Assembly: GCA_964019415.1 (NCBI GenBank)
Contig: OZ025870.1
Location: 3,680,908-3,744,907 of the forward strand
DNA length: 64,000 nucleotides
Reading direction: 5' to 3'
From: Ianthella basta
Lineage: Eukaryota; Porifera; Demospongiae; Verongiida; Ianthellidae
This document shows, piece by piece, positions 515 through 62,799 of the stretch; the stretch's first letter is position 1; each line of letters starts with the position of its first letter. The translations under genes were made by a program, and so were the position numbers. The notes beneath the pieces are model-generated. The model was given only the letters and a program-made list of their open reading frames with translations. It was not told the origin of the DNA and made no database searches.

Positions 515-540
515 CTGGAGAGGGATGCACACAAGTACAG

Positions 541-567
541 TAGATACATGTACATAATATGTATCTA
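541..567. repeat. 9-bp inverted repeat at the array edge
   Basis: TAGATACAT at 541-549 and ATGTATCTA at 559-567 are perfect inverted repeats around a 9-nt loop. They lie in the 50 bp between the HYDIN exon c acceptor and the first minisatellite unit. Confidence 0.6.
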
Positions 568-568
568 T

Positions 569-3500
569 GATAAGGTAAGATCTGGCAAGATATGACAAGG
601 TAAGATCTGGCAAGATATGACAAGGTAAGATCTGGCAAGATATGACAAGGTAAGATTAGGCAAGATTAGGGAAGATATGACAAGGTAAGATTTGACAAGA
701 TTTGGCTAGATATGACAAGGTAAGATTAGGCAAGATTTGGCAAGATATGACAAGGTAAGATTAGGCATGATTAGGCAAGATATGACAAGGTAAGATTTGG
801 CAAGATTTATGGCAAGATTTGGAAACATATGGCAAAGTTAGAATTGGCAAGATTTGGCAAGATATGACAATGTAAGATTTGGCAAGATTTGGCAAGATAT
901 GACAAGGTAAGATTTGGCAAGATTTGGCAAGATATGACAAGGTAAGATTAAGCAAGATTTGGCAAGATATGACAAGGTAAGATTAAGCAAGATTTGGCAA
1001 GATATGAGAAGGTAAGATTTGGTAAGATTAGGCAAAATATGACGAGGTAAGATTTGGCAAGATTTGGCAAGATATGACAAGGTAAGATTTGGCAAGATTT
1101 GGCAAGATATGACAAGGTAAGATTAAGCAAGATTTGGCAAGATATGACAAAGTAAGATTAAGCAAGATTTGGCAAGATATGACACGGTAAGATTTGGCAA
1201 GATTTGGCAAGATATGACAAGGTAAGATTAAGCAAGATTAGGCAAAATATGACAAGGTCTGATTTGGCAAGATTAGGCAAGATATGACATGGTAAGATTT
1301 GGCAAGATTTGGCAAGATATGACAAGGTAAGATTTGGCAAGATTTGGCAACATATGACAAGGTAAGATTTGGCAAGATTATGCAAGATATCATGACAAGG
1401 TAAGATTTGGCAAGATTTGGCAAGATATGACAAGGTAAGATTAAGCAAGATTATGCAAGATATGACAAGGTAAGATTAAGCAAGATTTGGCAAGATATGA
1501 CAAGGGAAGATTTGGCAAGATTAGGCAAAATATGACAACTTGAAGGTAAGATTTGGCAAGATTTGGCAAGATATGACAAGGTAAGATTTGGCAAGATTTG
1601 GCAAGATATGACAAGATATGATTTGGCAAGATCTGGCAAGATATGACAAGGTAAGATCTGGCAAGATATGACAAGGTAAGATCTGGCAAGATATGACAAG
1701 GTAAGATTTGGCAAGATTAGGGAAGATATGACAAGGTAAGATTTGACAAGATTTGGCTAGATATGACAAGGTAAGATTAGGCAAGATTTGGCAAGATATG
1801 ACAAGGTAAGATTAGGCATGATTAGGCAAGATATGACAAGGTAAGATTTGGCAAGATTTATGGCAAGATTTGGAAAGATATGGCAAAGTTAGAATTGGCA
1901 AGATTTGGCAAGATATGACAATGTAAGATTTGGCAAGATTTGGCAAGATATGACAAGGTAAGATTTGGCAAGATTTGGCAACATATGACAAGGTAAGATT
2001 TGGCAAGATTATGCAAGATATCATGACAAGGTAAGATTTGGCAAGATTTGGCAAGATATGACAAGGTAAGATTAAGCAAGATTATGCAAGATATGACAAG
2101 GTAAGATTAAGCAAGATTTGTCAAGATATGACAAGGTAAGATTAAGCAAGATTTGGCAAGATATGAGAAGGTAAGATTTGGTAAGATTAGGCAAAATATG
2201 ACGAGGTAAGATTTGGCAAGATTTGGCAAGATATGACAAGGTAAGATTTGGCAAGATTTGGCAAGATATGGCAAGGTAAGATTAAGCAAGATTTGGCAAG
2301 ATATGACAAGGTAAGATTAAGCAAGATTTGGCAAGATATGACACGGTAAGATTTGGCAAGATTTGGCAAGATATGACAAGGTAAGATTAAGCAAGATTAG
2401 GCAAAATATGACAAAGTCTGATTTGGCAAGATTAGGCAAGATATGACATGGTAAGATTTGGCAAGATTTGGCAAGATATGACAAGGTAAGATTTGGCAAG
2501 ATTTGGCAACATATGACAAGGTAAGATTTGGCAAGATTATGCAAGATATCATGACAAGGTAAGATTTGGCAAGATTTGGCAAGATATGACAAGGTAAGAT
2601 TAAGCAAGATTATGCAAGATATGACAAGGTAAGATTAAGCAAGATTTGGCAAGATATGACAAGGGAAGATTTGGCAAGATTAGGCAAAATATGACAACTT
2701 GAAGGTAAGATTTGGCAAGATTTGGCAAGATATGACAAGGTAAGATTTGGCAAGATTTGGCAAGATATGACAAGGTAAGATTAGGCAAGATTAGACAAGA
2801 TATGACAAGGTAAGATTAGGCAACATTAGGCAAGATATGACAAGATATGATTTGGCAAGATTTGGCAAGATATGGCAAGGTAAGATTTGGCAAGATTAGG
2901 CAAGATATGACAAGGTAAGATTTGGCAAGATTTGGCAAGATATGACAAGGTAAGATCTGCATGGCAAGATTAGGCAAGATATGACAAGGTAAGATTAGGC
3001 AAGATTAGGCAACATGACAAGGTAAGATGAAGCAAGATTTGGCAAGATATCACAAGGTAGATTTGGCAAGATTTGGCAAGATATGGCAAGGTAAGATTTG
3101 GCAAGATTTGGGAACATATGACGAGGTAAGATTAGGCAAGATACGGCAAGATATGACAAGGTAAGATTTGACAAGATTAGGCAAGATAAGACAAGGTAAG
3201 GTCTGGCAAGATTAGGCAAGATATGACAAAGTAAGATCTGGCAAGATATGACAAGGTAAGATTCTGGCACGATTAGGCAAGATATGACAAGGTAAGATCT
3301 GGCATGATATGACAAGGTAAGATTTGGCAAGATTTGGCAAGATATGACAAGGTAAGATTTGGCAAGATTAGGCAAAATATGACAAGGTAAGATTTGGCAA
3401 GATTAGGCAAGATATGACAAAGTAAGATTTGGCAAGATTAGGCAAAATATGACAAGGTAAGATTTGGCAAGATTAGGAAAGATATGACAAGATAAGTTTT

Positions 3501-5027
3501 GGCAAGATTTGGTAAGATATGACAAGGTAAGATATGCATGGCAAGATTAGGCAAGATATGACAAGGTAAGATTAGGCAAGATTAGGCAACATGACAAGGT
3601 AAGATTTGGCAAGATTTAGCAAGATATGACAAGGTAAGATTAGGCAAGATTTGGCAAGATATGAGAAGGTAAGATTTGGCAAGATTAGGCAAGTTATGAC
3701 AAGGTAAGATTAAGCAAGATTTGGCAAGATATGACAAGGTAAGATTTGGCAAGATTAGGCAAAATATGACAAGGTAAGATTTGGCAAGATTTGGCAAGAT
3801 ATGACAAGGTAAGATTTGGCAAGATTAGGCAAGATATGACAAGGTAAGATCTGGCAAGATATGACAAGGTAAGATTTGGCAAGATTAGGCAAGATATGAC
3901 AAGGTAAGATCTGGCAAGATATGACAAGGTAAGATTCTGGCAAGATTAGGCAAGATATGACAAGGTAAGATCTGGCAAGATATGACAAGGTAAGATTTGG
4001 CAAGATTTGGCAAGATATGACAAGGTAAGATTTGGCAAGAATTGGCAAGATATGACAAGGTAAGATTTCGCAAGATTTGGCAAGATATGACAAGGTAAGA
4101 TTTGGCAAGATTAGGCAAAATATGACAAGGTAAGATTTGACAAGATTAGGCACGATATGACAAGTTAAGATTAGGCAAGATTTGGCAAGATATGACAAGG
4201 TACGATTAGGCAAGATTTAGACAAGATATGACAAGGTAAGATTAGGCAACATTAGGCAAGATATGAAAAGATAAGATTTTGCAAGATTTGGCAAGATATG
4301 ACAAGGTAAGATTTGGCAAGATTAGGCAATATATGGCAAGGTAAGATTTGGCAAGATTTGGCAAGATATGACAAGGTAAGATTAGGCAAGATTAGGCAAT
4401 ATATGGCAAGGTAAGATTTGGCAAGATTTGGCAAGATATGACAAGGTAAGATTTGGCAAGATTTAGCAAGATATGACAAGGTAAGATTAGGCAAGATTTG
4501 GTAAGATATGAGAAGGTAAGATTTGGCAAGATTTGGCAAGATATGACAAGGTAAGATTAAGCAAGATTTAGCAAGATATGAGAAGGTAAGATTTGGCAAG
4601 ATTAGGTAAGTTATGACAAGGTAAGATTAAGCAAGATTTGGCAAGATATGACAAGGTAAGATTTGGCAAGATTAGGCAAAATATGACAAGGTAAGATTTG
4701 GCAAGATTTGGCAAGATATGACAAGGTAAGATTTGGCAAGATTAGACAAGATATGACAAGGTATGATCTGGCAAGATATGACAAGGTAAGATTTGGCAAG
4801 ATAAGGCAAGATATGACAAGGTAAGATCTGGCAAGATATGACAAGGTAAGATTCTGGCAAGATTAGGCAAGATATGACAAGGTAAGATCTGGCAAGATAT
4901 GACAAGGTAAGATTTGGCAAGATTTGGCAAGATATGACAAGGTAAGATTTGGCAAGAATTGGCAAGATATGACAAGGTAAGATTTCGCAAGATTTGGCAA
5001 GATATGACAAGGTAAGATTTGGCAAGA
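569..5027. repeat. 25/35-bp minisatellite, block 1
   Basis: This is a tandem array on the plus strand. The long unit is 35 bp: a 10-mer GATATGACAA, the 5-mer GGTAA, then two copies of GATTTGGCAA (often GATTAGGCAA or GATTAAGCAA). The short unit is 25 bp, with only one trailing 10-mer, usually GATCTGGCAA. Block 1 contains a tandem higher-order duplication with a 1,159-bp shift (for example about 950-1,450 against 2,107-2,607) and another of 917 bp (about 3,694-3,927 against 4,611-4,844). It ends at LINE A, whose candidate target duplication is 5,015-5,027. Confidence 0.97.
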
Positions 5028-6112
5028 AAGGAAGCAGACTAGAGTGTGCAAACTACAGAGGAATTAGTCTAATGAGTATTGTTGGTAAGGTGTTTGCGAG
5101 GGTATTGAATGAGCGGGTGAAGATGGCAACAGTTGACACAGTGATGGACGAGCAAGGAGGTTTCAGAACTGGCAGGGGGTGCAATGACCAAATTTTTGCA
5201 GTCAAGCAAATTGTGGAGAAAACCATTGAGAAAGATAAGAAAACATACATGGCTTTTGTGGATCTGGAAAAGGCATACGACAATGTAAGCAGGGAAAAGT
5301 TGTGGAAAGTGCTATATGCTTATGGGGTGAAAGGAAGGCTGTTAAGGGCAATTCAGGCACTGTATGTCAACGGAAGGGCCAAGGTGAAAGTTGGGGAAAT
5401 GGAATCAGAGTTGTTTGAGGTGCATAGAGGTGTGAGGCAGGGTTGCACTCTCTCACCATGGCTCTTTAATGTGTTTATCGACAGCGTGACGAGGGAGGCA
5501 AGAAGGCAGTTTCTGAGGGAGGTGAAGTTGTCAACTGGTGATGTAGGGCTACTCCTTTTTGTGGATGACATGGTGGTAATGGCAGAATCAGTGGAAGGGC
5601 TACAGCACAATTTACAGGTGATGAGTGATGTGCTGAGCAGGTGGGAGCTGAGGGTGAATTGGAGAAAGACTAAAGTGATGAGGATTGCAAGGAAGAGAGA
5701 GGAATGTGAAGTCAAAATTGATGAAGAGGTAATAGAACAGGTAGATGCAATGAAGTACTTGGGTGTGATGATTAGTAGTGATGGGAGAATGGAGAAGGAA
5801 GTAGAGGCAAGGATTGGGGGTGCAACACGGGTGATCGGAGGGTTGAATGATGTAGTACTGAGAAGGAAGGAATTGAGCAGGAGCACTAAGCTGAAAGTAG
5901 TGAATGCCACAGTGATGCCAACATTATTGTACGGTTGTGAGACGTGGACTCTATCTAAGCAGCAGCAATTGAAAGTGCAGGCCACCCAGATGAAGGTGTT
6001 GAGGCAGATCGAAGGTGTGACTAGGTTGGATCGGATGAGAAATGTAGACATTAGGGAGAAGTTGAGACAAGAAAGTGTTTTGGATGCAGTGAAGAGAAGG
6101 CAGGAGAAGTGA
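5028..6112 (+). pseudogene. LINE A reverse transcriptase, decayed
   Basis: The open frame encodes about 360 residues of a non-LTR RT. Recognisable segments in order are NYRGISLMSIVGKVFARVL, the GFRTGRGCNDQIF block, FVDLEKAYD (palm motif A), GVRQGCTLSPWLFNVFID (motif B), LLFVDDMV (motif C, normally FADD), KTKVM, and LLYGCETWTLSK with GVTRLDRMRN in the C-terminal region. The endonuclease half is missing, so the copy is 5'-truncated. A TGA at 6,110-6,112 interrupts the frame. After it the expected C-terminal text (RLEEMSNERL, then PRGRPRSRW) continues but with a further frame change near 6,180. The open frame runs in from array sequence to the left, so no native start exists. The clade is not certain. 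Confidence 0.85.
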
Positions 6113-6346
6113 AGGGTTAGACTGGAAGAAATGAGCAATGAGAGGTTAACAAAGAAAGTTTTTGTTGGAGAGATGGAGGAAAAGAGACCAAGAGGAAGAC
6201 CACGCTCAAGATGGACAGATAATTTTAAATAGCTTCTATATCGTATAACTAACTACTTGCCATGCTAACATATCAGTGTATAAGTATAGGGATGACCTCC
6301 AGTATTGGAGATGTATCCATTTTGGTTATTGAATTCAATTGAATTG
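5028..6346 (+). mobile_element. LINE A: 5'-truncated non-LTR retrotransposon
   Basis: This is a unique 1.3-kb insertion in the array carrying a reverse transcriptase ORF and a 3' region ending in an ATTGAATT-rich tail. AGATTTGGCAAGA occurs on both sides (5,015-5,027 and 6,347-6,359) and can be a 13-bp target-site duplication, although the array itself repeats this word, so the evidence is weak. The 5' end begins inside the RT domain, as expected for incomplete target-primed reverse transcription. It is related to LINE B but is a different family member. Confidence 0.88.
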
Positions 6347-9300
6347 AGATTTGGCAAGATTAGGCAAAATATGACAAGGTAAGATTTGGCAAGATTAGGC
6401 AAGATATGACAAGTTAAGATTTGGCAAGATATGACAAGGTAAGATTAGGCAAGATTTAGACAAGATATGACAAGGTAAGATTAGGCAACATTAGGCAAGA
6501 TATGAAAAGATAAGATTTTGCAAGATTTGGCAAGGTATGACAAGGTAAGATTTGGCAAGATTAGGCAATATATGGCAAGGTAAGATTTGGCAAGATTTGG
6601 CAAGATATGACAAGGTAAGATTTGGCAAGATTTAGCAAGATATGACAAGGTAAGATTAGGCAAGATTTGGTAAGATATGAGAAGGTAAGATTTGGCAAGA
6701 TTAGGCAAGATATGACAAGGTAAGATTAAGCAAGATTTGGCAAGATATGATAAGGTAAGATTTGGCAAGATTAGGCAAAATATGACAAGGTAAGATTTGG
6801 CAAGATTAGGCAAGATATGACAAGGTAAGATTTAGCAAGATTTGGCAAGATATGACAAGGTAAGATTTGGCAAGATTAGGCAAGATATGACAAGGTAAGA
6901 TTTGGCAAGATTTGGCAAGATATGACAAGGTAAGATCAGCATGGCAAGATTAGGCAAGATATGACAAGGTAAGATTAGGCAAGATTAGGCAACATGACAA
7001 GGTAAGATTAAGCAAGATTTGGCAAGATATGACAAAGTAAGATTTGGCAAGATTTGGCAAGATATGACAAGGTAAGATTTGGCAAGATTTGGCAACATAT
7101 GACGAGGTAAGATTAGGCAAGATAAGGCAAGATATGACAAGGTAAGATTTGACAAGATTAGGCAAGATATGACAAGATAAGATCTGGCAAGATATGACAA
7201 GGTAAGATTTGGCAAGATTAGGCAAGATATGACAAGGTAAGATCTGGCAAGATTAGGCAAGATATGACAAAGTAAGATTCTGGTAAGATTAGGCAAGATA
7301 TGACAAGGTAAGATTTGGCAAGATATGACAAGGTAAGATTTAGCAAGATTAAGTAAGATATGACAAGGTAAGATCTGGCAAGATATGACAAGGTAAGATT
7401 TGGCAAGATTAGGCAAGATATGACAAGGTAAGATTCTAGTAAGATTAGGCAAGATATCACAAGGTAAGATTTGGCAAGATATGACAAGGTAAGATTTGAC
7501 AAGATTTGGCAAGATATGACAAGGTAAGATCTGGCAAGATTAGGCAAGATATGAAAAGGTAAGATTAGGCAACATTAGGCAAGATATGAAAAGATAAGAT
7601 TTTGCAAGATTTGGCAAGATATGACAAGGTAAGATATGGCAAAATTTGGCAAGATATTGCAAGGTAAAATTTGGCAAGATTTGGCAAGATATGACAAGGT
7701 AAGATTAAGCAAGATTAGGCAAGATATGACAAGGTAAGATTCGGCAAGATTTGGCAAGATATGACAAGGTAAGATCTGGCAAGATTAGGCAAGATATGAC
7801 AAGGTAAGATCTGGTAAGATATGACGAGGTATGATCTGGCAAGATATGACAAGGTAAGATCTGGCAAGATTAGGCAAGATATGACTAGGTAAGATCTTGC
7901 AAGATTTGGCAAGATCTGACGAGGTATGATCTGGCAAGATATGATGAGGTAAGATTTGGCAAGATTAGGCAAGATTAGGCAAGATATGACAAGGTAGGAT
8001 TAGGCAAGATTTGGCAAGATATGACAAGGCAAGATCTGGCAAGATATGACAAAGTAAGATTAAGAAATATTTGGCAAGATATGAGAAGGTAAGATTTGGC
8101 TAGATATGACCAGGTAAGATTAAGCAAGATTTGGCAAGATATGACGAGGTAAGATTTGGCAAGATTTGGCAAGATATGACAAGGTAAGATCTGGCAAGAT
8201 TAGGCAAGATATGACAAGGTAAGATCTGGCAAGATATGACGAGGTATGATCTGGCAAGATATGACAGGGTAAGATCTGGCAAGATTAGGCAAGATATGAC
8301 TAGGTAAGATCTTGCAAGATTTGGCAAGATATGACAAGGTATGATCTGGCAAGATATGATGAGGTAAGATTTGGCAAGATTAGGCAAGATATGACAAGGT
8401 AAGATTAAGCAAGATTAGGCATAATATGACAAGGTAAGATTTGGCAAGATTAGGCAAGATATAACAAGGTAAGATTAAGCAAGATTTGGCAAGATATGAC
8501 CAGGTTAGATTAGGCAAGATTAGACAAGATATGACAAGGTAAGATTAGGCAACATTAAGCAAGATATGACAAGATAAGATTTTGGCAAGATTTGGCAAGA
8601 TATGACAAGGTAAGATTTCGCAAGATTTGGCAAGATATGACAAGGTAAGATTTGGCAAGATTTGGCAAGATGTGACAAGGTTAGATTAGTCAAGATTAGA
8701 CAAGATATGACAAGGTAAGATTTGGCAAGATATGACAAGGTAAGATTTGGCAAGATTTGGCAAGATAAGACAAGGTAAGATTTGGCAAGATTTGGCAAGA
8801 TATGACAAGGTAAGATTAGGCAAGATTAGACAAGATATGACAAGGTAAGATTAGGCAACCATATGCAAGATATGACAAGATAAGATTTGGCAAAATTTGG
8901 CAAGATATCACAAGGTAAGATTTGGCAAGATTAGGCAAAATATGACAAGGTAAGATTAGGCAAGATTAGACAAGATATGACAAGGTAAGATTAGGCAACA
9001 TCAGGCAAGATATGACAAGATAAGATTTGACAAGATTTGGCAAGAACATTTATGACAAGGTAAGATTTGGCAAGATTAGGCAAGATATGACAAGGTAAGA
9101 TTTGGCAAGATTTGGCAAGATATGACAAGGTAAGATCTGGTAAGATTAGGCAAGATAAGGCAAGATATGACAAGGAAAGATTTGACAAGATTAGTCAAGA
9201 TATGACAAGGTAAGATCTGGCAAGATATGACAAGGTAAGATTTGGCAAGATTAGGCAAGATATGACAAGGTAAGATTTGGCAAGATTTGGTAAGATATGA

Positions 9301-12300
9301 CAAGGTAAGATTTGGCAAGATTAGACAAGATATGACAAGGTAAGATTAGGCAACATTAGGCAAGATATGACAAGATAAGATTTGGCAAGATTTGGGAAGA
9401 TATGACAAGGTAACATTAAGCAAGATTATGCAAGATATGACAAGGTAAGATTAAGCAAGATTTGGCAAGATATGACAAGGTAAGATTTGGCAAGATTAGG
9501 CAAAATATGACAAGGTAAGATTTGGCAAGATTAAACAAGATATGACAAGGTAAGATTTGGCAAGATTTGGCATGATATGACAAGGTAAGATTAGGCAAGA
9601 TTAGACAAGATATGACAAGGTATGATTAGGCAACTTTAGTCAAGATATGACAATATAAGATTTGGCAAGATTTGGCAAGATATGACAAGGTAAGATTTGG
9701 CAAGATTAGGCAAGATATGGCAAGGCAAGATTTGGCAAGATTTGGCAAGATATGACAAGGTAAGATTTGGCAAGATTTAGCAAGATATCATAATTTAAGA
9801 TTAAGCTAGATTTGGCAATATACAAGAAGGTAAGATTTGGCAGATTAGGCAAGATATGACAAGGTAAGATTTGGCAAGATTAGGCAAGATATGACGAGGT
9901 AAGATTTGGCAAGATTTGGCAAGATATGACAAGGTAAGATTAAGCAAGATTATACAAGATATGACAAGTAAGATTCTGGCAAGATTAGGCAAGATATGAC
10001 AAGGTAAGATTCGGCAAGATTAGGCAAAATATGACAAGGTAAGATTTGGCAAAATTAGGCAAAATATGACAAGGTAAGATTTGGCAAGATTTGGCAAGAT
10101 ATGACAAGGTAAGATTAGGCAAGACTAGAAAAGATATGACAAGGTAAGATTCGGCAACATTAGGCAAGATATGACAAGATGAGATTTGGCAAGATTTGGC
10201 AAGATATGACAAGCTAAGATTTGGCAAGATTAGGCAAGATATGACAAGGTAAGATTTGCCAAGATTTGCCAAGATATGACAAGGTAAGATTTAGCAAGAT
10301 TTGGCAAGATATGACAAGGTAAGATTTGGCAATATTTAGCAAGATATGACAAGGTAAGATTAAAAAGATTTGGTAAGATATGAGAAGGTAAGATTTGGCA
10401 AGATTAGGCAAGATATGACGGGGTAAGATTTGGCAAGATTTGGCAAGATATGACAAGGTAAGATTTGGTAACAATTTGGCAAGATATGACAAGTAAGATT
10501 AAGCAAGATTTGGCAAGATATGACGAGATAAGATTTGGCAAGATTAGGCAAGATATGACATGGTAAGATTTGGCAAGATTAGGCAAGATATGAAAAGGTA
10601 AGATTTGGCTAGATTTGGCAAGATATGACAACGTAAGATCTCCATGGCAAGATTAGGCAAGATATGACAAGGTAAGATTTGGCAAGATTTGGCAAGATAT
10701 GATAAGGTAAGATTTGGCAAGATTTGGCAAGATTAGGCAAAATATGACAACGTAAGATTTGGCAAGATTAGGCAAGATACGACAATGTAAGATTAAGCAA
10801 GATTAGGCAAGATATCACAAGGTAGATTCGGCAAGATTAGGCAAGATATGACAATGTAAGATTTGGCAAGATTTGGCAAGATATGATAAGGTAAGATTTG
10901 GCAAGATTTGGCAAGATTAGGCAAAATATGACAACGTAAGATTTGGCAAGATTAGGCAAGATACGACAAGGTAAGATTTGGCAAGATTTGGCAAGTTATG
11001 ACAAGGTAAGATTAGACAAGATTAGACAAGATATGACAAGGTATGATTAGGCAACATTATGCAAGATATGACAAGATAAGATTTGGCAAGATTTGTCAAG
11101 ATATGACAAGGTAAGATTTGGCAAGATTAGGCAAGATATGACGGGGTAAGATTTGGCAAGATTAGGCAAGATATGACAAGGTAAGATTTGGCAAAATTTG
11201 GCAAGATATGACAAGGTAAGATTAAGCAAGATTTGGCAAGATATGACGAGATAAGATTTGGCATGATTAGGCAAGATATGACAAGGTAAGATTTGGCAAG
11301 ATTAGGCAAGATATGAAAAGGTAAGATTTGGCTAGATTTGGCAAGATATGACAACGTAAGATCTCCATGGCAAGATTAGGCAAGATATGACAAGGTAAGA
11401 TTTGGCAAGATTTCGCAAGATATGATAAGGTAAGATTTGGCAAGATTTGGCAAGATTAGGCAAAATATGACAACGTAAGATTTGGCAAGATTAGGCAAGA
11501 TACGACAAGGTAAGATTAAGCAAGATTAGGCAAGATATCACAAGGTAGATTCGGCAAGATTAGGCAAGATATGACAATGTAAGATTTGGCAAGATTTGGC
11601 TAGATTAGGCAAAATATGACAACGTAAGATTTGGCAAGATTAGGCAAGATACGACAAGGTAAGATTTGGCAAGATTTGGCAAGATATGACAAAGGTAAGA
11701 TTAGACAAGATTAGACAAGATATGACAAGGTATGATTAGGCAACTTTAGTCAAGATATGACAATATAAGATTTGGCAAGATTTGGCAAGATATGACAAGG
11801 TAAGATTTGGCAAGATTTGGCAAGATATGACAAGGTAAGATTAAGCAAGATTTGGCAAGATATGACAAGGTAAGATTAAGCAAGATTTGGCAAGATATGA
11901 CACGGTAAGATTTGGCAAGATTTGGCAAGATATGACAAGGTAAGATTTGGCAAGATTAGGCAAGATATGACGGGGTAAGATTTGGCAAGATTTGGCAAGA
12001 TATGACATGGTAAGATTTGGCAAAATTTGGCAAGATATGACAAGGTAAGATTAAGCAAGATTTGACAAGATATGACAAGATAAGATTTGGCAAGATTTGG
12101 CAAGATATGACAAGGTAAGATTTGGCAAGATTAGGCAAGATATGACAAGGTAAGATTTGGCAAGATTAGGCAAGATATGAAAAGGTAAGATTTGGTTAGA
12201 TTTGGCAAGATATGACAAGGTAAGATCTGCATGGCAAGATTAGGCAAGATATGACAAGGTAAGATTAGGCAAGATTAGGCAACATTACAAGGTAAGATTA

Positions 12301-34079: not shown

Positions 34080-34134
34080 CGTAATAGTAGTAGTGATAAT
34101 AATAATAATAATAGTAATGATAATGATAACGTAA
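34080..34134. repeat. AT-rich microsatellite in the YR element 3' region
   Basis: A run of TAA/TGA-type triplets (GTAGTAGTGATAATAATAAT and onward) lies between the recombinase ORF and repeat B1. Confidence 0.7.
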
Positions 34135-38912: not shown

Positions 38913-39162
38913 GGAACACACAACACGTCTCTGCCGACACGTGGCACCTTGCTAGCGATCCGCCTACCGGCAGTCCTTCCTCCGCGCTGATAGGCGCATG
39001 TGACCAGAGCCCGCCAATGAGCCATGGCAGACCCCTCCCCAATCACGCGACCCCACGCGGCCTGTGCCCCCATCGGTAGCCTGCCCCCGTCTCGCGCACC
39101 ACGTGGTCCGTATAACCCCCGGCCAATTAACCTGGGTTAACGTCTGCCCCGTTAACCCTCAC
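38913..39162. repeat. YR element split repeat A1
   Basis: This 250-bp repeat lies at the 5' end of the element in its own orientation and is identical by eye to A2. The array resumes at 39,163 with GCAAGATATGACAAGG. Confidence 0.88.
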
Positions 39163-42100: not shown

Positions 42101-45100
42101 AGGTAAGATCTGCATGGCTAGATTAGGCAAGATATGACAAGGTAAGATTAGGCAAGATTAGGCAACATGACAAGGTAAGATTAAGCAAGATTTGGCAAGA
42201 TATGATAAGGTAGATTTGGCAAGATTTGGCAATATATGACAAGGTAAGATTTGGCAAGATTAGGCAAGATATGACAAGGTAAGATTTGGCAAGATTTGGC
42301 AAGATATGACAAGGTAAGAGCTGCATGGCAAGATTAGGCAAGATATGACAAGGTAAGATTAGGCAAGATTAGGCAACATGACAAGGTAAGATTAAGCAAG
42401 ATTTGGCAAGATATGATAAGGTAGATTTGGCAAGATTTGGCAAGATATGGCAAGGTAAGATCTGGCAAGATATGACAAGGTAAGATTTGGCATGATTTGG
42501 CAAGATATGACAAGGTAAGATTTGGCAAGATTTGGCAAGATATGACAAGGTAAGATTAAGCAAGATTTGGCAAGATATGACAAGGTAAGATTTGACAAGA
42601 TTCGGCAAGATATGACAAGGTAAGATTTGGCAAGAATTGGCAAGATATGACAAGGTAAGATTTGGCAGTATTTGGCAAGGTATGACAAGGTAAGATTTGG
42701 CAAGATTAGGCAAGATATGACAAGGTAAGATTTGGCAAGATTTGGCAAGATATGACAAGGTAACATTAGGCAAGATTAGACAAGATATGACAAGGTAAGA
42801 TCTGGCAAGATTAGGCAAGATATGACAAGGTAAGATCTGGCAAGATATGACAAGGTAAGATTTGGCAAGATTTAGCAAGATATGACAAGGTAAGATTAAA
42901 CAAGATTTGGCAAGATATGAGAAGGTAAGATTTGGCAAGATTAGTCAAGATATGACGAGGTAAGATTTGGCAAGATTTGGTAAGATATGACAAGGTAAGA
43001 TTTGACAAAATTTGGCAAGATATGACAAGGTAAGATTAAGCAAGATTTGGTAAGATATGACGAGGTAAGATTAAGCAAGATTTGGCAAGATATGACAAGG
43101 TACGATTTGGCAAGATTTGGCAAGTTATGACAAGGTAAGATTTGGCAAGATTAGGCAAGATATGACAAGGTAAGATTTGACAAGATTTGGCAAGATATGA
43201 CAAGGTAAGATTAAGCAAGATTTGGCAAGATATGACAAGGTAAGATTTGGCAAGAATAGGCAAGATATGACAAGGTAAGATTTGGCAAGATTTGGCAAGA
43301 TATGACAAGGTAAGATCTGCATGGCTAGATTAGGCAAGATATGACAAGGTAAGATTAGGCAAGATTAGGCAACATGACAAGGTAAGATTAAGCAAGATTT
43401 GGCAAGATATGATAAGGTAGATTTGGCAAGATTTGGCAATATATGACAAGGTAAGATTTGGCAAGATTAGGCAAGATATGACAAGGTAAGATTTGGCAAG
43501 ATTTGGCAAGATATGACAAGGTAAGAGCTGCATGGCAAGATTAGGCAAGATATGACAAGGTAAGATTAGGCAAGATTAGGCAACATGACAAGGTAAGATT
43601 AAGCAAGATTTGGCAAGATATGATAAGGTAGATTTGGCAAGATTTGGCAAGATATGGCAAGGCAAGATTTGGCAAGATTTGGCAACATATGACGAGGTAA
43701 GATTTGGCAAGAAAAGGCAAGATATGACAAGGTAATATTTGACAAGATTAGGCAAGATATGACAAGGTAAGATCTGGCAAGATATGACAAGGTAAGATTT
43801 GGTAAGATTAGGCAAGATATGACAAGGTAAGATCTGGCAAGATATGACAAGGTAAGATTTGGCACGATTTGGCAAGATATGACAAGGTAAGATTTGGCAA
43901 GATTTAGCAAGATATGACAAGGTAAGATTAAGCAAGATTTGGCAAGATATGACAAGGTAAGATTTGGCAAGATTAGGCAAGATATGACAAGGTAAGATTT
44001 GGCAAGATTTGGCAAGAAATGACAAGGTAAGATTAGGCAAGATTAGATAAGATATGACAAGGTAAGATTAGGCAACATTAGGCAAGATATGACAAGATAA
44101 GATTTGGCAAGATTTAGCAAGATATGACAAGGTAAGATTAGGCAAGATTTGGCAAGATATGAGAAGGTAAGATTTGACAAGATTAGGCAAGATGTGACAA
44201 GGTAAGATTTGGCAAGATTTGGCAAGATATGACAAGGTAAGATTTGGCAAGAATTGGCAAGATATGACAAGGCAAGATTAAGCAAGATTTGGCAAGACTT
44301 GACAAGGTAAGATTAAGCAAGATTTGGCAAGATATGATGAGGTAAGATTAAGCAAGATTTGGCAAGATATGACAAGGTAAGATTTGACAAGATTAGGCAA
44401 GATATGACAAGGTAAGATCTGGCAAGATATGACAAGGTAAGATTTGGAAAGATTAGGCAAGATATGACTAGGTAAGATCTGGCGATATATGACAAGGTAA
44501 GATTCTGGTAAGATTAGGTAAGATATGACAAGGTAAGATCTGGCAAGATATGACAAGGTAAGATTTGGCAAGATTTGGCAAGATATGACAAGGTAGGATT
44601 AAGCAAGATTTGGCAAGATATGACAAGGTAAGATTCGGCAAGATTTGGCAAGATATGACAAGGTAAGATTTGGCAAAATTTGGCAAGATATTGCAAGGTA
44701 AGATTTGGCAAGATTTGGCAAGATATGACAAGGTAAGATTAAGCAAGATTAGGCAAGATATGACAAGGTAAGATTCGGCAAGATTTGGCAAGATATGACA
44801 AGGTAAGATTTGGCAAGATTAGGCAAGATATGACAAGGTAAGATCTGGTAAGATATGACGAGGTATGATCTGGCAAGATATGACAAGGTAAGATCTGGCA
44901 AGATTAGGCAAGATATGACTAGGTAAGATCTTGCAAAATTTGGCAAGATCTGACGAGGTATGATGTGGCAAGATATGATGAGGTAAGATTTGGCAAGATT
45001 AGGCAAGATTAGGCAAGATATGACAAGGTAGGATTAGGCAAGATTTGGCAAGATATGACAAGGCAAGATCTGGCAAGATATGACAAGGTAAGATCTGGCA

Positions 45101-48100
45101 AGATTAGGCAAGATATGACAAGGTATGATCTGGCAAGATATGATGAGGTAAGATCTGGCAAGATAAGACAAGGTAAGATCTGGCAAGATTAGGCAAGATA
45201 TGACAAGGTAAGATCTGGCAAGATATGACGAGGTAAGATTAGGCTAGATTAGGCAAGATATGACAAGGTAAGATTAAGCAAGAATTGGTAAGATATGACA
45301 TGGTAAGATTGGGCTAGATTTGGCAAGTTATGACAGGGTAAGATTAGGCAAGATTAGGCAAGTTATGACAAGGTAAGATTAAACAAGATTTGATTAGATA
45401 TGACTAGGTAAACTTAAACAACATTAGGCAAGATATGACAAGGTAAGATTTGGCAAGATATGACAAAGTAAGATTGAGAAATATTTGGCAAGATATGAGA
45501 AGGTAAGATTTGGCAAGATTTGGCAAGATATGACAAGGTAAGATTAAGCAAGATTTGGCATGATATGACGAGGTAAGGTTTGGCAAGATTTGGCAAGATA
45601 TGACAAGGTAAGATCTGGCAAGATTAGGCAAGATATGACAAGGTAAGATCTGGCAACATATGACGAGGTATGATCTGGCAAGATATGACAGGGTAAGATC
45701 TGGCAAGATTAGGCAAGATATGACTAGGCAAGATCTTGCAAGATTAGGCAAGATATGACAAGGTAAGATCTGGTAAGATATGACGAGGTATGATCTGGCA
45801 AGATATCACAAGGTAAGATCTGGCAAGATTAGGCAAGATATGACTAGGTAAGATCTTGCAAGATTTGGCAAGATCTGACGAGGTATGATCTGGCAAGATA
45901 TGATGAGGTAAGATTTAGCAAGATTAGGCAAGATTAGGCAAGATATGACAAGGTAGGATTAGGCAAGATTTGGCAAGATATGACAAGGCAGGATCTGGCA
46001 AGATATGACAAAGTAAGATTAAGAAATATTTGGCAAGATATAAGAAGGTAAGATTTGGCAAGATTTGGCAAGATATGACAAGGTAAGAATAAGCAAGATT
46101 TGGCAAGATATGACGAGGTAAGATTTGGCAAGATTTGGCAAGATATGACAAGGTAAGATCTGGCAAGATTAGGCAAGATATGACAAGGTAAGATCTGGCA
46201 AGATATGATGAGGTATGATCTGGCAAGATATGACAGGGTAAGATCTGGCAAGATTAGGCAAGATATGACTAGGTAAGATCTTGCAAGATTTGGCAAGATA
46301 TGATGAGGTAAGATTTGGCAAGTTTAGGCAAGATTAGGCAAAATATGACAAGGTCAGATTAGGCAAGATTTGGCAAGATATGACAAGGTAAAATCTGGCA
46401 AGATTTGACGAGGTATGATCTGACAAGTTATGACGAGGTAAGATCTGGCTAGATAGGAAGAGGTAAGATTTGGCAAGATTAGGCAAGTTTAGGCAAGATG
46501 TGACAAGGTAAGATCTTGCAAGATATGACCAGGTAAGATTTGGCAAGATCTGGCAAGATATGAGGAGGTACGTATGATCTGGCAAGATATGACGAGGTGA
46601 GATTAGGCAAGATATGACAAGGTAAGATCTGGCAAGATTAGGCAAGATATGACAAGGTAAGATCTGGCAAGATATGACAAGGTAAGATTTGGCAACATTT
46701 GGCAAGATGTGACGAGGTATATGATCTGGCAAGATATGACAAGGTAAGATTTGGCAAGATTAGGCAAGATATGACACGGTAAGATCTGGCAAGATTAGGC
46801 AAGATATGACATGGTAAGATCTGGCAAGATATGACAAGGTAAGATCTGGCAAGATTTGACAAGGGAAGATTAGGCAAGATATGACAAGGTAAGATCTGGC
46901 AAGATATGACAAGGTAAGATTTGGCAACATTTGGCAAGATGTGACGAGGTATCTGATCTGGCAAGATATGACAAGGTAAGATTTGGCAAGATTAGGCAAG
47001 ATATGACAAGGTAAGATCTGGCAAGATTAGGCAAGATATGACATGGTAAGATCTGGCAAGATATGACAAGGTAAGATCTGGCAAGATTTGACAAGGAAAG
47101 ATTAGGCAAGATATGACAAGGTAAGATCTGGCAAGATATGACAAGGTAAGATTTGGCAACATTTGGCAAGATGTGACGAGGTATCTGATCTGGCAAGATA
47201 TGACAAGGTAAGATTTGGCAAGATTTGGCAAGATATGACAAGGTAAGATCTGGCAAGATTAGGCAAGATATGACATGGTAAGATCTGGCAAGATATGACA
47301 AGGTAAGATCTGGCAAGATTTGACAAGGAAAGATTAGGCAAGATATGACAAGGTAAGATCTGGCAAGATTAGGCAAGATATGACAAGATAGGATTAAGCA
47401 AGATTTGGCAAGGTATTGAAGGTACGATTTTGAAAGATTTTGCAAGATATGACAAGGTAAGATTTGGCAAAATTTGGCAAGATATTGCAAGGTAAGATTT
47501 GGCAAGATTTGGCAAGATAAGACAAGGTAAGATTAAGCAAGATTAGGCAAAATATGACAAGGTAAGATTCGGCAAGATTTGGCAAGATATGACAAGGTAA
47601 GGTCTGGCAAGATTAGGCAAGATATGACAAGGTAAGATTTGGCAAAATTTGGCAAGATATTACAAGGTAAGATTTGGCAAGATTAGGCAAGTTATGACAA
47701 GGTAAGATTAAGCAAAATTTGGCATGATATGACAAGGTAAGATTTAGCAAGATTTGGCAAGGTAAGATCTGGCAAGATACGACAAGGTAATATTAGGCAA
47801 GATATGGCAAGGTAAGATCTAGCAAGATTAGGCAAGATATGACAAGGTAAGATTAAGCTAGATTTGGCAAGGTATTGAAGGTAAGATTTGGCAAGATTTT
47901 GCAAGATATGACAAGGTACGATTAGGCAAGATTAGGCAAGATATGACAAGGTAAGATTTGGCAAAATTTTGCAAGATATTGCAAGGTAAGATTTGGCAAG
48001 ATTAGGCAAGTTATGACAAGGTAAGATTAAGCAAGATTTGGCATGATATGACAAGGTAAGATTTGGCAAGATTTGGCAAGATATGACAAAGTATGATCTG

Positions 48101-51100
48101 GCAAGATATGACGAGGTAAGATCTGGCAAGATATGACAAGGTAAGATTAGGCATGATATGACAAGGTAAGATCTGGCAAGATTAGGCAAGATATGGCAAG
48201 ATATGACAAGGTAAGATTTGGCAAGATTAGGCAAGATATGACAAGGTAAGATTAGGCAAGATTAGGCAAGATATGACAAGGTAAGATTTGGCAAAATTTG
48301 GCAAGATATTACAAGGTAAGATTTGGCAAGATTAGGCAAGTTATGACATGGTAAGATTTGGCAATATTAGGCAAGATATGACAAGGTAAGATTTGGCAAG
48401 ATTTGGCAAGGTAAGATCAGGCAAGATACGACAAGGTAAGATTAGGCAAGTTATGGCAAGGTAAGATCTAGCAAGATTAGGCAAGATATGACAAGGTAAG
48501 ATTAAGCTAGATTTGTCAAGGTATTGAAGTTAAGATTTGGCAAGATTTTGCAAGATATGACAAGGTACGATTAGGCAAGATTAGGCAAGATATGACAAGG
48601 TAAGATTTGGCAAAATTTTGCGAGATATTACAAGTTAAGATTTGGCAAGATTAGGCAAGTTATGACAAGGTAAGATTAAGCAAGGTTTGGCATGATATGA
48701 CAAGGTAAGATTTGGCAAGATTTGGCAAGATATGACAAGGTATGATCTGGCAAGATATGACGAGGTAAGATCTGGCAAGATATAACGAGGTAAGATTAGG
48801 CAAGATATGACAAGGTGAGATCTGGCAAGATTAGGCAAGATATGACAAGGTAAGATCTGGCAAGATATGACAAGGTAAGATTTGGCAAGATTTGGCAAGA
48901 TTAGGCAAGATATGACAAGGTAAGATTAGGCAAGATTAGGCAAGATATGACGAGGTAAGATTTGGCAAAATTTGGCAAGATATTACAAGGTAAGATTTGG
49001 CAATATTAGGCAAGTTATGACATGGTAAGATTTGGCAAGATTAGGCAAGATATCACAAGGTAAGATTAAGCAAGATTCGACAAGTTAAGATTAGGCAAGA
49101 AATGGCAAGGTAAGATCTAGCAAGATTAGGCAAGATATGACAAGGTAAGATTAAGCTAGATTTGGCAAGGTATGAAGGTAAGATTTGGCAAGATTTTGCA
49201 AGATATGACACGGTACGATTAGGCAAGAATAGGCAGGATATGACAAGGTAAGATTTGGCAAAATTTGGCAAGATATTACAAGGTAAGATTTGGCAAGATT
49301 AGGCAAGTTATGACAAGGTAAGATTAAGCAAGATTTGGCATGATATGACAAGGTAAGATTTGGCAAGATTTGGCAAGATATGTCAAGGTAAGATCTGGCA
49401 AGATACGACAAGGTAAGATTAGGCAAGATATGACAAGGTAAGATCTGGCAAGACTAGGCAAGATATGACATGGTAAGATTAAGCTAGATTTGGCAAGGTA
49501 TTGAAGGTAAGATTTGGCAAGATTTTGCAAGATATGACAAGGTAAGATTTGGCAAGATTTGGCAAGATATGACAAGTTAAGATTAAGCAAGATTAGGCAA
49601 GATATGACAAGGTAAGATTTGGCAAGATATGACAAGGTGAGATTTGGTAAGATTCGGCAAGATATGACAAGGTAAGATCTGGCAAGATATGATGAAGTAT
49701 GATCTGGCAAGATTTGGCAAGATATCACAAGGTAAGATTAAGCAATAGTTGGCAAGATATGACAAGGTAAGATTAGGCAAGGTTAGGCAAGATATGACAA
49801 GTTAAGATTAGGCAATATTGGGTAAGATATGACAAGGTAAGATTAAGCAAGATTTGGCAAGATATGACATGGTAAGATTTGGCAAGATTTGGCAAGATAT
49901 GACATGGTAAGATTTGACAAGATTTGGCAAGATATGACAAAGTAAGATTTGGCAAGATTTGGCAAGATATGACAAGGTAAGATTTGGTAAGATTAGGCAA
50001 GATATGACGAGATATAATCTGGCAAGATATGGCGAGGTAAGATCTGGCAAGATATGACAAGGTAAAATCTGGCAAGATATGACAAGGTAAGATCAGGCAA
50101 AATTTTGCAAGATATTTTAAGGTAAGATTTGGCAAGATTAGGCAGGTTATGACAAGGTAAGATTAAGCAAGATTTGGCAAGATATGACAAGGTAAGATTT
50201 GGCAAGATTTGGCAAGATATGACAAGGTATGATCTGGCAAGATATGACGAGGTAAGATCTGGCAAGATATGACGAGGTAAGATCTGGCAAGATATGACAA
50301 GGTAAGATTTGGCAAGATTTGGCAAGATTAGGCAAGATATGACAAGGTAAGATTTGGCAAGATTTGGCAAGATTAGGCAAGATATGACAAGGTAAGATTA
50401 CGCAAGATTAGGCAAGGTAAGATTTGGCAAGATTTGGCAAGATTAGGCAAGATATGACAAGGTAAGATTACGCAAGATTAGGCAAGATATGACAAGGTAA
50501 GATCTGGCAAGATATGCCAATGTAAGATTTGCCAAGATTTGGCAAGATATGACAAGGTAAGATTTGGCAAGATTAGGCAAGATATGACGAGGTAAGATCT
50601 GGCAATATATGACGAGGTAATATCTGGCAAGATATGACAAGGTATGATCTAGCAAGATATGACAAGGCAAGATGTGGCAAGATTAGGCAAGATATGACAA
50701 GGTAAGATCTGGCAAGATATGATGAGGTACGATCTGGCTAGATAGGACGCGATAAGATTTGGCAATATTAGGCAAGATATGACAAGGTAAGATCTGGCAA
50801 GATATGACAAGATAAGATTTGGCAAGATTTGGCAAGATTAGGCAAGATATGCCAAGGTAAGATTAGGCAGATATGACAAGGTAAAATTAGGCAAGATTAG
50901 GCAAGATATGACAAGGTAAGATTTGACAAGATCTGGCAAGATACGACGAGGTATGATCTGGCAAGATATGACGAGGTAAGATCTGGCAAGATATGACGAG
51001 CTAAGATTAGGTAAGATATGACAAGGTAAGATCTGGCAAGATTAGGCAGGATATGACTAGGTAAGATCTGGCAAGATATGACAAGATAAGATTTGGCAAG

Positions 51101-53956
51101 ATTTGGCGAGATTAGGCAAGATGTGACAAGGTAAGATTAGGCAGATATGACAAGGTAAGATTAGGCAAGATTGGGCAAGATATGACAAGATATATTTGGC
51201 AAGATTTGGTAAGATATAACAAGGTAAAATCTGGCAAGATATGACAAAGTATGATCTGGCAAGATATGACAAGGTAACATCTGGCAAGATATGACAAGGC
51301 AAGATTTGGCAAGATATGACAAGATATGACAAGGTAAAATCTGGCAAGATATGACGTGGTAAGATCTGGCAAGATACGATGAGGTAAGATCTGGCAAGAA
51401 ATGACAAGGTAAGATCTGGCTAGATTAGGCAAGATATGACAAGGCAAGATTTGGCAAGATATGACAAGGTAAAATCTGGCAAGATATGACGTGGTAAGAT
51501 CTGGCAAGATATATATGATGAGGTAAGATCTGGCAAGATATGACAAGGTAAGATCTGGCTAGATTAGGCAAGATATGACAAGGTATAATCTGGCAAGATA
51601 TAACAATTTATGATCTGGCAAGATATGACGAGGTAAGATTTGGCGAGATTAGGCAAGATTAGGCAAGATATGAGAAGGTAAGATCTGGCAAGAAATGACA
51701 AGGTAAGATTAGGCAAGATATGAGAAGGTAAGATCTGGCAAGATATGACGAAGTTAGATTTGGCAAGATTTGGCAAGATATGACATGGTAAGATCTGGCA
51801 AGATATGACAAGGTAAGAACTGGCAAGATTAGGCAAGATATGACAAGGTAGAATCTGGCAAGATATGACGAGGTATGATCTGGCAAGATATGATGAGGTA
51901 AAATCTGGCAAGATAGGACGAGGTAAGATTTGGCAAAATTAGGCAAGATTAGGCTAGATATGACAAGGTAAGATTAGGCAAGATTTGGCAAGATATGACA
52001 AGGTAAGATCTGGCAAGATATGACAAGGTAAGATTAGGCAAGACTAGGCAAGATATGACAAGGTAAAATCTGGCAAGATATGACATGGCAAGATTTGGCA
52101 AGATTTGGCAAGATATGACGAGGTATGATCTGGCAAGATATGATGAGGTAAGATCTGGCAAGATATGACAAGGTAAGATTTGGCAAGATTAGGCAAGATA
52201 TGAGAAGGTAAGATCTGGCAAGAAATGACAAGGTAAGATTAGGCAAGATATGAGAAGGTAAGATCTGGCAAGATATGACAAGGTTAGATTTGGCAAGATT
52301 TGGCAAGATATGACGAGGTAAGATCTGGCAAGATATGACAAGGTAAGATTTTGCAACATTAGGCAAGATATGACAAGGTAAGATCTGGCAAGATATGACA
52401 AGGTAAGATCTGGCAAGATATGACAAGGTAAGATTAGGCAAGACTAGGCAAGATATGACAAGGTAAAATCTGGCAAGATATGACATGGCAAGATTTGGCA
52501 AGATTTGGCAAGATATGACGAGGTATGATCTGGCAAGATATGATGAGGTAAGATCTGGCAAGATATGACAAGGTAAGATTTGGCAAGATTAGGCAAGATA
52601 TGAGAAGGTAAGATCTGGCAAGAAATGACAAGGTAAGATTAGGCAAGATATGAGAAGGTAAGATCTGGCAAGATATGACAAGGTTAGATTTGGCAAGATT
52701 TGGCAAGATATGACGAGGTAAGATCTGGCAAGATATGACAAGGTAAGATTTTGCAACATTAGGCAAGATATGACAAGGTAAGATCTGGCAAGATATGACA
52801 AGGTAAGATCTGGCAAGATATGACAAGGTAAGATTAGGCAAGACTAGGCAAGATATGACAAGGTAAAATCTGGCAAGATATGACATGGCAAGATTTGGCA
52901 AGATTTGGCAAGATATGACGAGGTATGATCTGGCAAGATATGATGAGGTAAGATCTGGCAAGATATGACAAGGTAAGATTTGGCAAGATTAGGCAAGATA
53001 TGAGAAGGTAAGATCTGGCAAGAAATGACAAGGTAAGATTAGGCAAGATATGAGAAGGTAAGATCTGGCAAGATATGACAAGGTTAGATTTGGCAAGATT
53101 TGGCAAGATATGACGAGGTAAGATCTGGCAAGATATGACAAGGTAAGAACTGGCAAGATTAGGCAAGATATGACAAGGTAGAATCTGGCAAGATATGACG
53201 AGGTATGATCTGGCAAGATATGACGAGGTAAAATCTGGCAAGATAGGACGAGGTAACATTTGGCAAGATTAGGCAAGATTAGGCTAGATATGACAAGGTA
53301 AGATTAGGCAAGATTAGGCAAGATATGACAAGGTAAGATCTGGCAAGATATGACAAGGTAAGATTAGGCAAGACTAGGCAAGATATGACAAGGTAAGATC
53401 TGGCAAGATATGACAAGGTAACATCTGGCAAGATATGACAAGGTAAGATTTGGCAAGATTTGGCAAGATATGACGAGGTAAGATCTGGCAAGATATGACA
53501 AGGTAAGATTTGGAAAGATATGACGAGGTAAGATCTGGCAAGATATTCCGAGGTATGATCTGGCAAGATATGACAAGGTAAGATCTGGCAAGATATGACA
53601 AGGTAAGATCTGGCAAGATTAGGCAAGATATGACAAGGTAAGATCTGGCAAGATATGACAAGGTAAGATCTGGAAGATACGACAGATAAGATCTGGCAAG
53701 ATATGACGAGGTAAGATCTGGCAAGATATAACAAGATAAGATCTGGCAAGATTTAGCAAGATATGACTAGGTAAGATCTGGCAAGATTAGGCAAGATATG
53801 ACAAGGTAAGATTTGGCAAGATATGACGAGGTATGATCTGGCAAGATATGATGAGGTAAGATCTGGCAAGATAAGACGAGGTAAGATTTGGCAAGATTAG
53901 GCAAGATTAGACAAGATTAGGCAAGATATGACAAGGTAAGATTTGGCAGGATATAA
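39163..53956. repeat. 25/35-bp minisatellite, block 6
   Basis: This is the last large block. It contains a near-identical 1,207-bp tandem duplication (for example 41,604-42,341 against 42,811-43,548), a 232-bp unit in three copies (about 46,640-47,340) and a 400-bp unit in three copies (about 52,000-53,260). Toward the right end the 25-bp unit with GATCTGGCAA predominates, while the 35-bp unit dominates further left. This suggests different local amplification histories. Confidence 0.97.
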
Positions 53957-53960
53957 GGTA

Positions 53961-54757
53961 ATGGGGCAGAAGTGAAGTTCATTGGGGCACCAGATACAAA
54001 ATGTTTGCAGGGGATGCCGTATTCCCCAGTGAAGTTCACTGGGGCACCAGATGCCAAATGTTTGCAGGGGATGCCGTATTCCTCGGTAAGTTCATTGGGG
54101 CACCAGATGCCCAATGTTTGCAGGGGATGCCGTATTCCCCACTGAACTTCACTGGGGCACCAGATGCCCAATGTTTGCAGGGGATGCCGTATTACTCAGT
54201 GAAGTTCACAGGGAAACCAGATGCAAAATGTTTGCAGAGGATGCCGTATTCCCCGGTGAAGTTCATTGGGGCACCAGATGCCCACTGTTTGCAGGGAATG
54301 CCGTATTCCCCGGTGAAGTTCACTGGGGCACCAGATGCCCAATGTTTGCAGGGGATGCTGTATTTCCCGGTGAAGTTCACTGAGGCACCAGATGCAAAAT
54401 GTTTGCAGGGAATGCCGTATTCCCCAATGAACTTCACTGTGGCACCAGATGCCCAATGTTTGCAGGGGATGCCGTATTACTCAGTGAAGTTCACAGGGGA
54501 ACCAGATGCAAAATGTTTGCAGAGGACGCCGTATTCCCCGGTGAAGTTCATTGGGGCACCAGATGCCCAATGTTTGCAAGGGATGCCGTATTTCCGGTGA
54601 AGTTCACTGAGGCACCAGATGCAAAATATTTGCAGGGAATGCAGTATTCCCCGGTGAAGTTCACTGGGGCACAAGATGCAAAATGTTTGCAGGGGATGCC
54701 GTATTCCCCAGTGAAGTTCACTGGAGCACCAGATGCAAAATGTTTGCAGGGGACAAG
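53961..54757. repeat. 57-bp minisatellite, about 14 copies
   Basis: Tandem 57-bp units contain GTGAAGTTCACTGGGGCACC, a CAGATGC word, a TGTTTGCAGGGGATGCC word and GTATTCCCC. Two variant types (GATGCCCAATG and GATGCAAAATG) are mixed, and a five-unit (285-bp) higher-order period is visible between about 54,185 and 54,590. Because 57 is divisible by 3, 19-residue repeat frames stay open on both strands, but there is no start or context to support a gene. The unit is unrelated to the 25/35-bp array. Confidence 0.9.
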
Positions 54758-55189
54758 ATTCTGCGGCGACGATTCCTAACAGCAATCCCCATTCCATGGC
54801 AATGCATTTACTGAAGAGAAGAATCGTTCTGTACAGTACTGATTTCTTTAATGATATCTGCAATATCTAGCTACGTTGCACACCTGCCAGTAAGAGAGAT
54901 TTTGCGATTTGTTCTGTTTGGCTAGTTGTACCATGGCTACAAGCGTTACTAAATTGGAGAGACAGTTGTCGTCACACTTACAACAAGCATTGAGTTCAAG
55001 TGGTCTGAGTACTGGCGAAGAGAGGTCAGCTGTGTAGCTAGGCCATTTGGCCAACACCAAGGGGCATGTGATTGAGCATAGATGTACCGTAAATATTCTA
55101 AATAAATAATCAAAAATCTAAAGTTCGCAAACTTTCAGTGATCTTGCCTTGACCCGCTCTAAAATTCGATTTATTGGCCGTCTCTAATG
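54758..55189. other. Unique intronic sequence, nothing recognised
   Basis: This is AT-rich sequence without a supportable ORF, RNA gene or repeat. Confidence 0.5.
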
Positions 55190-55228
55190 TTTGGCAAATA
55201 TGACTTAGGGTGGCAAGATTTGGCAAGG
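55190..55228. repeat. Stray decayed minisatellite units
   Basis: TTTGGCAAATATGACTTAGG followed by GTGGCAAGATTTGGCAAGGC resembles two diverged array units. They lie more than 1.2 kb beyond the end of the main array and past the 57-bp minisatellite. Confidence 0.6.
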
Positions 55229-55337
55229 CACATACATGTACACACCTCACCTTGTCTGAAGTAGGTTCATACATACGTAGATATTCGTCTCACACTCACC
55301 TCCACATCACCACATTCCAAGCTATATGCATACATAC

Positions 55338-55492
55338 ACACAGCCCACTCTCCACCAGTAACACCCACACACAGCCCACTCTCCACCAGTAACACCCACA
55401 CACAGCCCACTCTCCACCAGTAACACCCACACACAGCCCACTCTCCACCAGTAACACCCACACACAGCCCACTCTCCACCAGTAACACCCAC
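55338..55492. repeat. 31-bp minisatellite, 5 copies
   Basis: Five near-identical 31-bp units (CAGCCCACTCTCCACCAGTA then ACACCCACACA) start at 55,341, 55,372, 55,403, 55,434 and 55,465. The array begins about 22 bp downstream, in sense orientation, of the HYDIN exon b donor at 55,514. Confidence 0.92.
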
Positions 55493-55514
55493 TAACCCAA
55501 CACACTTTACTCAC

Positions 55515-62797: not shown

Positions 62798-62799
62798 GT

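Follow-up and report, generated by a model that had tools for sequence, protein, structure and literature searches.

The closest described counterparts of the locus reported here are the Y-linked genes kl-3 and kl-5 of Drosophila, whose satellite-filled introns extend over megabases and account for more than 99% of the respective loci (PMC6508621). The satellites of these gigantic introns consist of 5-bp units such as AATAT and AAGAC, and Heph, the fly homologue of PTB, is found at Y-loops A and C (PMC6508621). Splicing of the giant introns of kl-3 and kl-5 is co-transcriptional (PMC11207136). Here, we describe a stretch of exactly 55,000 bp in the sponge Ianthella basta that is very probably an intron of a HYDIN-family locus and that consists for the most part of one 35-bp minisatellite. 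The DNA analysed, hereafter the window, comprises 64,000 nucleotides of contig OZ025870.1 (GenBank assembly GCA_964019415.1, positions 3,680,908 to 3,744,907 of the forward strand), and all coordinates refer to positions in it.

As in the Drosophila Y-linked genes kl-3, kl-5 and ks-1, the intron is mostly satellite (42,369 of 55,000 bp). To this extent the parallel with kl-3 and kl-5 drawn in the initial annotation holds for a HYDIN-family intron; it fails at the megabase scale of the fly introns, as the present one measures 55 kb. The repeat unit differs as well, being composed of 35 bp (10 + 10 + 15 bp) instead of the 5 bp of the fly satellites. Unlike the Y-loop genes, the HYDIN copy studied here carries a stop codon, and its likeness to them is one of intron make-up. 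CeRep25B of C. elegans is likewise a minisatellite residing in introns and has been linked to splicing choices, but it has 24-base palindromic units and occurs in several genes, and no array of tens of kilobases is found in the passages of that source considered here (PMC4039745). In a limited collection of literature on sponge introns, satellites and HYDIN, as well as on satellites within introns of axonemal or gigantic genes, no such intron outside flies was among the matches listed.

The HYDIN-like exons and the probable intron between them

The minus strand of the window carries five HYDIN-like exon blocks in the order -1, a, b, c and d, which together with the giant intron are as follows (slashes mark splice sites):

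56472..56564, minus strand: HYDIN-like exon -1, 93 nt, 31 codons (LRIRLK...ISIQQ), phase 0, open, donor CAG/gtaatc
55817..55999, minus strand: HYDIN-like exon a (IFDILTPG-stop-TQQIKLTFYGHC...TTIDC), in-frame TAG at 55973-55975, 3' end and donor ambiguous
55649-55515, minus strand: HYDIN-like exon b, 135 nt, 45 codons, ending VHPSS, open, donor TCC/gtgagt
515..55514, minus strand: b-c intron, exactly 55,000 bp, phase 0 on both sides, GT/AG ends
514-431, minus strand: HYDIN-like exon c, 84 nt, 28 codons (GEVAPLSEQ...SLSQ), open, donor CAG/gtacag
115..257, minus strand: HYDIN-like exon d (IQIGHLEAQMVTLLGEGFFPKISLS...), ending at 115 with an internal frame change, or at 175 with donor ACG/gtacgt and no frame change

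Taken as one sequence, the blocks from exon -1 to exon c are colinear with HYDIN in phmmer searches of the Protein Data Bank, where they align to residues 1355-1509 of 9ijj (E 3.4e-28; 61 of 145 positions identical) and to residues 1203-1338 of 7n6g and 7sqc (E 5.4e-21 and 2e-20; 47 of 137 identical in 7n6g). In exon -1 it is the 3' part that aligns, starting at residue 1355 or 1356 of 9ijj. The start of exon d corresponds to residue 1514 of 9ijj and is thus next in order after exon c, although the match is weak (E 0.064); the window ends at base 1, just past this exon on the minus strand. Alignment of the exons to HYDIN, the check named in the initial annotation, therefore bears out the order of the blocks, with exon d resting on that weak match. 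Two features are absent from the annotation, namely that exon a contains an in-frame TAG and that the frame may change within exon d. With regard to a HYDIN-type Ig/ASH domain, the Pfam score exceeds the cut-off for PF24507, a family named for CFAP65 (29.5 bits, cut-off 27), and remains below it for PF22544 (14.5 bits, cut-off 25.5) and the ASH family PF15780 (13.5 bits, cut-off 27).

Exon b, ending in VHPSS, and exon c, starting with GEVAPLSEQ behind a ctctccag acceptor, had been read as phase 0 exons of one continuous HYDIN domain with 55,000 bp between them. Boundaries and phase are correct to the base, the distance is exact, and the VHPSS/GEVAPLSEQ junction is gapless in the alignments to two distinct HYDINs, 9ijj and 7n6g/7sqc. 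With splice matrices of approximate human frequencies, on which all splice-site bit scores given here rest, the intron has a donor of 3.62 bits (TCC/gtgagt) and an acceptor of 9.64 bits (tccctctccag/G), and the donor of exon c scores 4.73 bits. The neighbouring introns are short (173 bp between c and d, 472 bp between -1 and a), so that among these introns only b-c is giant. Since homology, phase and splice signals agree, the 55,000 bp between exons b and c are very probably, as far as can be read from the DNA, a genuine spliceosomal intron of a HYDIN-family locus.

It could be argued that the assembly is at fault, either in joining the flanks or in the length of the array. The near-identical duplications inside the array described below are indeed places where assemblers miscount copies. 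However, chance would hardly pair two consecutive HYDIN exons in phase on the two flanks, which makes misjoined flanks unlikely, and array sequence is present on both sides of an inserted retrotransposon. We thus regard an assembly artefact as improbable.

The minisatellite array and the elements inserted in it

The bulk of the intron is formed by one tandem array:

572..53948, plus strand: minisatellite array of six segments totalling 42,369 bp, with the consensus AAGATTTGGC AAGATTTGGC/AAGATTAGGC AAGATATGACAAGGT, in one orientation, antisense to the gene

The six pure segments sum to 77% of the b-c intron, in agreement with the earlier estimate of about 42 kb for one minisatellite. Tandem Repeats Finder places the array of 35-bp units at 602-53915, while the outer edges at 572 and 53948 derive from a k-mer mask. 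The unit is made of modules of 10, 10 and 15 bp, core spacings of 10 and 15 being dominant, and self-identity peaks, at 0.809 and 0.758 in the two longest segments, when the lag is 35. The consensus 23-mer occurs 362 times, as compared to a mean of 0.00 in 100 shuffles. A single orientation is maintained throughout the six segments, with 929 occurrences of AGGTAAG on the plus strand and 0 on the minus strand. Searches for the exact satellite pattern yielded 0 matches in viral contigs and 0 in genome contigs, and Rfam at gathering thresholds yielded 0 matches.

Within the array, a k-mer script detected 19 pairs of duplicates that are 400 bp or longer and more than 93% identical, including one of 1212 bp at 99.8% and one of 763 bp at 100%. 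If the assembly is right, internal duplications that are 99-100% identical imply recent array turnover. One pair, 7637-8052 and 44671-45086 (416 bp, 99% identical), is separated by 37 kb that include several insertions and may reflect long-range exchange within the array. A satellite-like remnant (GGCAAGATTTGGCAAGG) at 55200-55227 is situated 1.3 kb beyond the array edge; the array may once have extended further.

Several other elements and side repeats share the intron with the array:

32961..39163, minus strand: Ngaro-like tyrosine-recombinase retrotransposon, 6.2 kb, with reverse transcriptase and recombinase-like open reading frames (ORFs) and split direct repeats
5028..6346, plus strand: reverse transcriptase fragment, probably of a retrotransposon without long terminal repeats (non-LTR), ORF 4973-6112, RVT_1 E 7.1e-41
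23995..25305, minus strand: reverse transcriptase fragment, probably non-LTR, RVT_1 E 7.7e-30, with three tandem copies of a 63-bp unit at 23993-24184
28918..30596, minus strand: reverse transcriptase fragment, probably non-LTR, ORF of 571 amino acids, RVT_1 E 1.8e-24
23246..23741: block resembling a miniature inverted-repeat transposable element (MITE), inverted ends TTAACCCATTAGC / GCTAATGGGTTAA, TTAA at both ends, read by eye
53971..54753: 57-bp minisatellite, 13.8 copies, between the array and exon b
55336..55492: 31-bp tandem repeat, 5.1 copies, 100% matches, adjoining the exon b donor

The order A1-ORFs-B1-A2-B2 of split direct repeats is a hallmark of Ngaro elements. The retrotransposon at 32961-39163 displays this order on the minus strand, its repeats being identical at 314 of 314 and 250 of 250 positions, and like Ngaro-type retrotransposons it combines a reverse transcriptase with a recombinase-like ORF. 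The reverse transcriptase ORF (35326-37104) matches RVT_1 above the cut-off (E 7.1e-13), and a gag-like ORF (37349-38497) has no Pfam match. The recombinase-like ORF (34394-35479) matches only PF13495, with 21.7 bits and thus below the cut-off of 27; apart from this, the element is unusual only in its position inside the array, which flanks it on both sides (judged partly by eye). It is apparently complete, and it looks young because its split repeats are 100% identical. The MITE-like block resembles the piggyBac type and carries the palindrome ATGACGCCTACAGGCGTCAT.

On these grounds, tandem amplification of one 35-bp minisatellite enlarged the intron, and so did insertion of retrotransposons and of the MITE-like element. 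Amplification and insertion are the growth route that the repeats themselves record, and part of the growth is, to judge by the 100% identical retrotransposon repeats and the 99-100% identical duplications, recent. We infer that the growth was essentially neutral. On balance, we therefore favour a genuine b-c intron of the HYDIN family that was enlarged in this essentially neutral way by repeat amplification and insertions.

Splice and RNA signals of the array strand in sense to the gene

How a transcript might cope with 42 kb of satellite is suggested by the strand asymmetry of the array. GTAAG is absent from the sense strand, the one presumably transcribed with the gene, as compared to 1063 occurrences on the opposite strand. 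Donor-matrix hits of at least 6 bits number 0 per kb in sense and 28.42 per kb on the opposite strand, the best sense donor reaching 2.6 bits. Matches to the poly(A) signal A[AT]TAAA amount to 1 in sense and 17 on the other strand. Given a sense strand without strong 5' splice sites and with one poly(A)-signal match, the polymerase could pass through the array, with no internal exons defined and the transcript left uncut; the whole array could then be removed as one intron. The scarcity of donors and poly(A) signals means that the array could be passed over, which would account for its tolerance and not for a function.

A more far-reaching description of the sense array as splice-silent was rejected: donors are absent, but acceptor-like sites are denser than in the flank. 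The 929 AGGTAAG copies on the plus strand match the consensus 5' splice site, and their complement, CTTACCT, is what the sense RNA would contain. CTTACCT resembles the 5' end of U1 small nuclear RNA. Folding of one 280-nt sense piece was weaker than that of shuffles (z +1.86), whereas the other strand gave z -2.69. TCTT, a PTB-type motif, occurs 3129 times in the sense array, where 5 mononucleotide shuffles average 710, while other pyrimidine motifs are depleted (CTCT 4 vs 506, TTCT 80 vs 726).

It is tempting to propose a working, regulated giant intron, in which transcription of the satellite and a dedicated RNA-binding programme would set the timing of HYDIN expression in cells that bear flagella or form sperm, a role of the kind suggested for the Y-loop genes of flies. 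Such a role would fit an axonemal gene family with a mainly satellite intron, and the excess of sense TCTT would be in line with the presence of the fly PTB homologue Heph at Y-loops A and C (PMC6508621). However, the intron measures 55 kb only and exon a contains a stop, and as CTCT and TTCT are depleted, the TCTT count may merely reflect the founder unit. We consider this proposal very unlikely.

State of the gene copy and meaning of the intron

Several observations weigh against the reading of a genuine, neutrally enlarged intron. As assembled, the frame through the exons is not open: exons -1, b and c are, but exon a is interrupted by an in-frame TAG (55973-55975), where it reads IFDILTPG-stop-TQQIKLTF. 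Among candidate donors of exon a that keep the frame of exon b, the best reaches 2.75 bits, and both sites of exon b are weak (donor 3.62 bits; acceptor, inside a (TG)n tract, 1.07 bits). Acceptor-like sites of at least 6 bits occur at 5.95 per kb in the sense array (about 250 in total) and at 3.51 per kb in the flank, and with acceptors this frequent exon b could splice into the array. Moreover, the orientation of the array goes back to a single founder event, in which either direction was equally likely, and is no evidence for selection.

As assembled, the copy has a stop before the giant intron; it could represent a pseudogene or a partial duplicate, but also a null allele or a base error, either of which would look identical. 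We hold it to be quite possible, without judging it probable, that the locus is a HYDIN pseudogene or partial duplicate in decay, where satellite and transposons accumulated once splicing no longer mattered. The TAG itself speaks for it, and beside the stop exon a is six residues shorter than 9ijj; however, there is no gap at this place as compared to 7n6g/7sqc, and the TAG may be a base error or a null allele. An acceptor within the stop codon would preserve the frame, since the AG of the TAG constitutes an alternative frame-keeping acceptor, though a weak one (2.17 vs 10.98 bits). A non-standard code with TAG as an amino acid was also considered and rejected, with the argument, rather than a formal test, that Pfam-matching ORFs of 379, 571, 592, 361 and 358 amino acids are open under the standard code.

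Conservation points both ways. Of the columns identical in both HYDIN references, only 10 of 19 are retained in exon b and 6 of 10 in exon c, as would be expected of decay, whereas exon a, which holds the stop, retains 17 of 20, and exons -1, b and c have open frames, in phase 0, between GT/AG sites. Exon d begins HYDIN-like, but its next long open stretch (LLPTVRDPDGLYNSLKEKASALLK), which the 9ijj alignment barely reaches, is in another frame, and this possible frame change would again favour a pseudogene. Use of the nearer donor ACG/gtacgt (7.19 bits) avoids the frame change and would leave exon d in frame throughout.

Sequence upstream of exon -1 bears on the same question. One intact gene-like feature is located there:

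58429-59505, minus strand: kelch ORF, 358 amino acids, intact, PF24681 E 2.4e-17, on the strand of the HYDIN exons, with exon -1 following 1.9 kb downstream of its 3' end

A coiled-coil-like ORF near 63500-63720, noticed by eye, may belong with it. Three-frame searches of 56592-64000 (for one frame, the best 60 of 70 matches, kelch-type by name) and a Pfam scan revealed no HYDIN match, a weak negative since control queries holding exon b likewise gave nothing. No HYDIN match was found either in 12 of the 29 listed ORFs of at least 22 amino acids above exon -1, none of them from beyond 57685, in a query with a working internal control that recovered exons -1 and a at E 6.2e-11. Both this negative and the nearby kelch ORF would fit a copy that is cut off on its 5' side, although the kelch ORF may also belong to a gene that is nested within a further large intron. 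Human HYDIN2, a 364-kb duplication of 79 internal exons, illustrates that partial HYDIN duplicates occur (PMC5345166). Similarly, the exons described here derive from HYDIN and possibly lack the 5' part of the gene.

Taken together, the working axonemal gene assumed in the initial annotation finds no clear support, in view of the stop in exon a, the possible frame change in exon d and the kelch ORF just upstream. Nor does the special transcription or splicing in ciliated or sperm-forming cells to which, according to the annotation, the intron could point. A genuine HYDIN-family intron that grew by amplification and insertion remains the reading we favour; it is very probably a satellite-filled intron of an already known type, in a gene whose function is in doubt. 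A much bolder interpretation would see in it an independent satellite intron in an axonemal gene far from flies, with a transcribed strand that is free of strong 5' splice sites and contains TCTT in thousands of copies. Orientation would then decide which satellites introns hold, a protein of the PTB type would bind all along the intron RNA, and long axonemal genes of different animals would converge on the same splicing solution. We consider this a long shot.

Should the copy prove to be a pseudogene, no parallel with kl-3 and kl-5 would remain, and the array would be no more than the usual growth of repeats in non-functional DNA. An expressed locus would offer a small satellite intron in an axonemal family, contained wholly within one assembled window, that could be spanned by single long reads and traced by RNA imaging of the sense repeat (CTTACCTTGTCATATCTTGCC). 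It would then allow a direct test of whether introns tolerate satellites in one orientation only.

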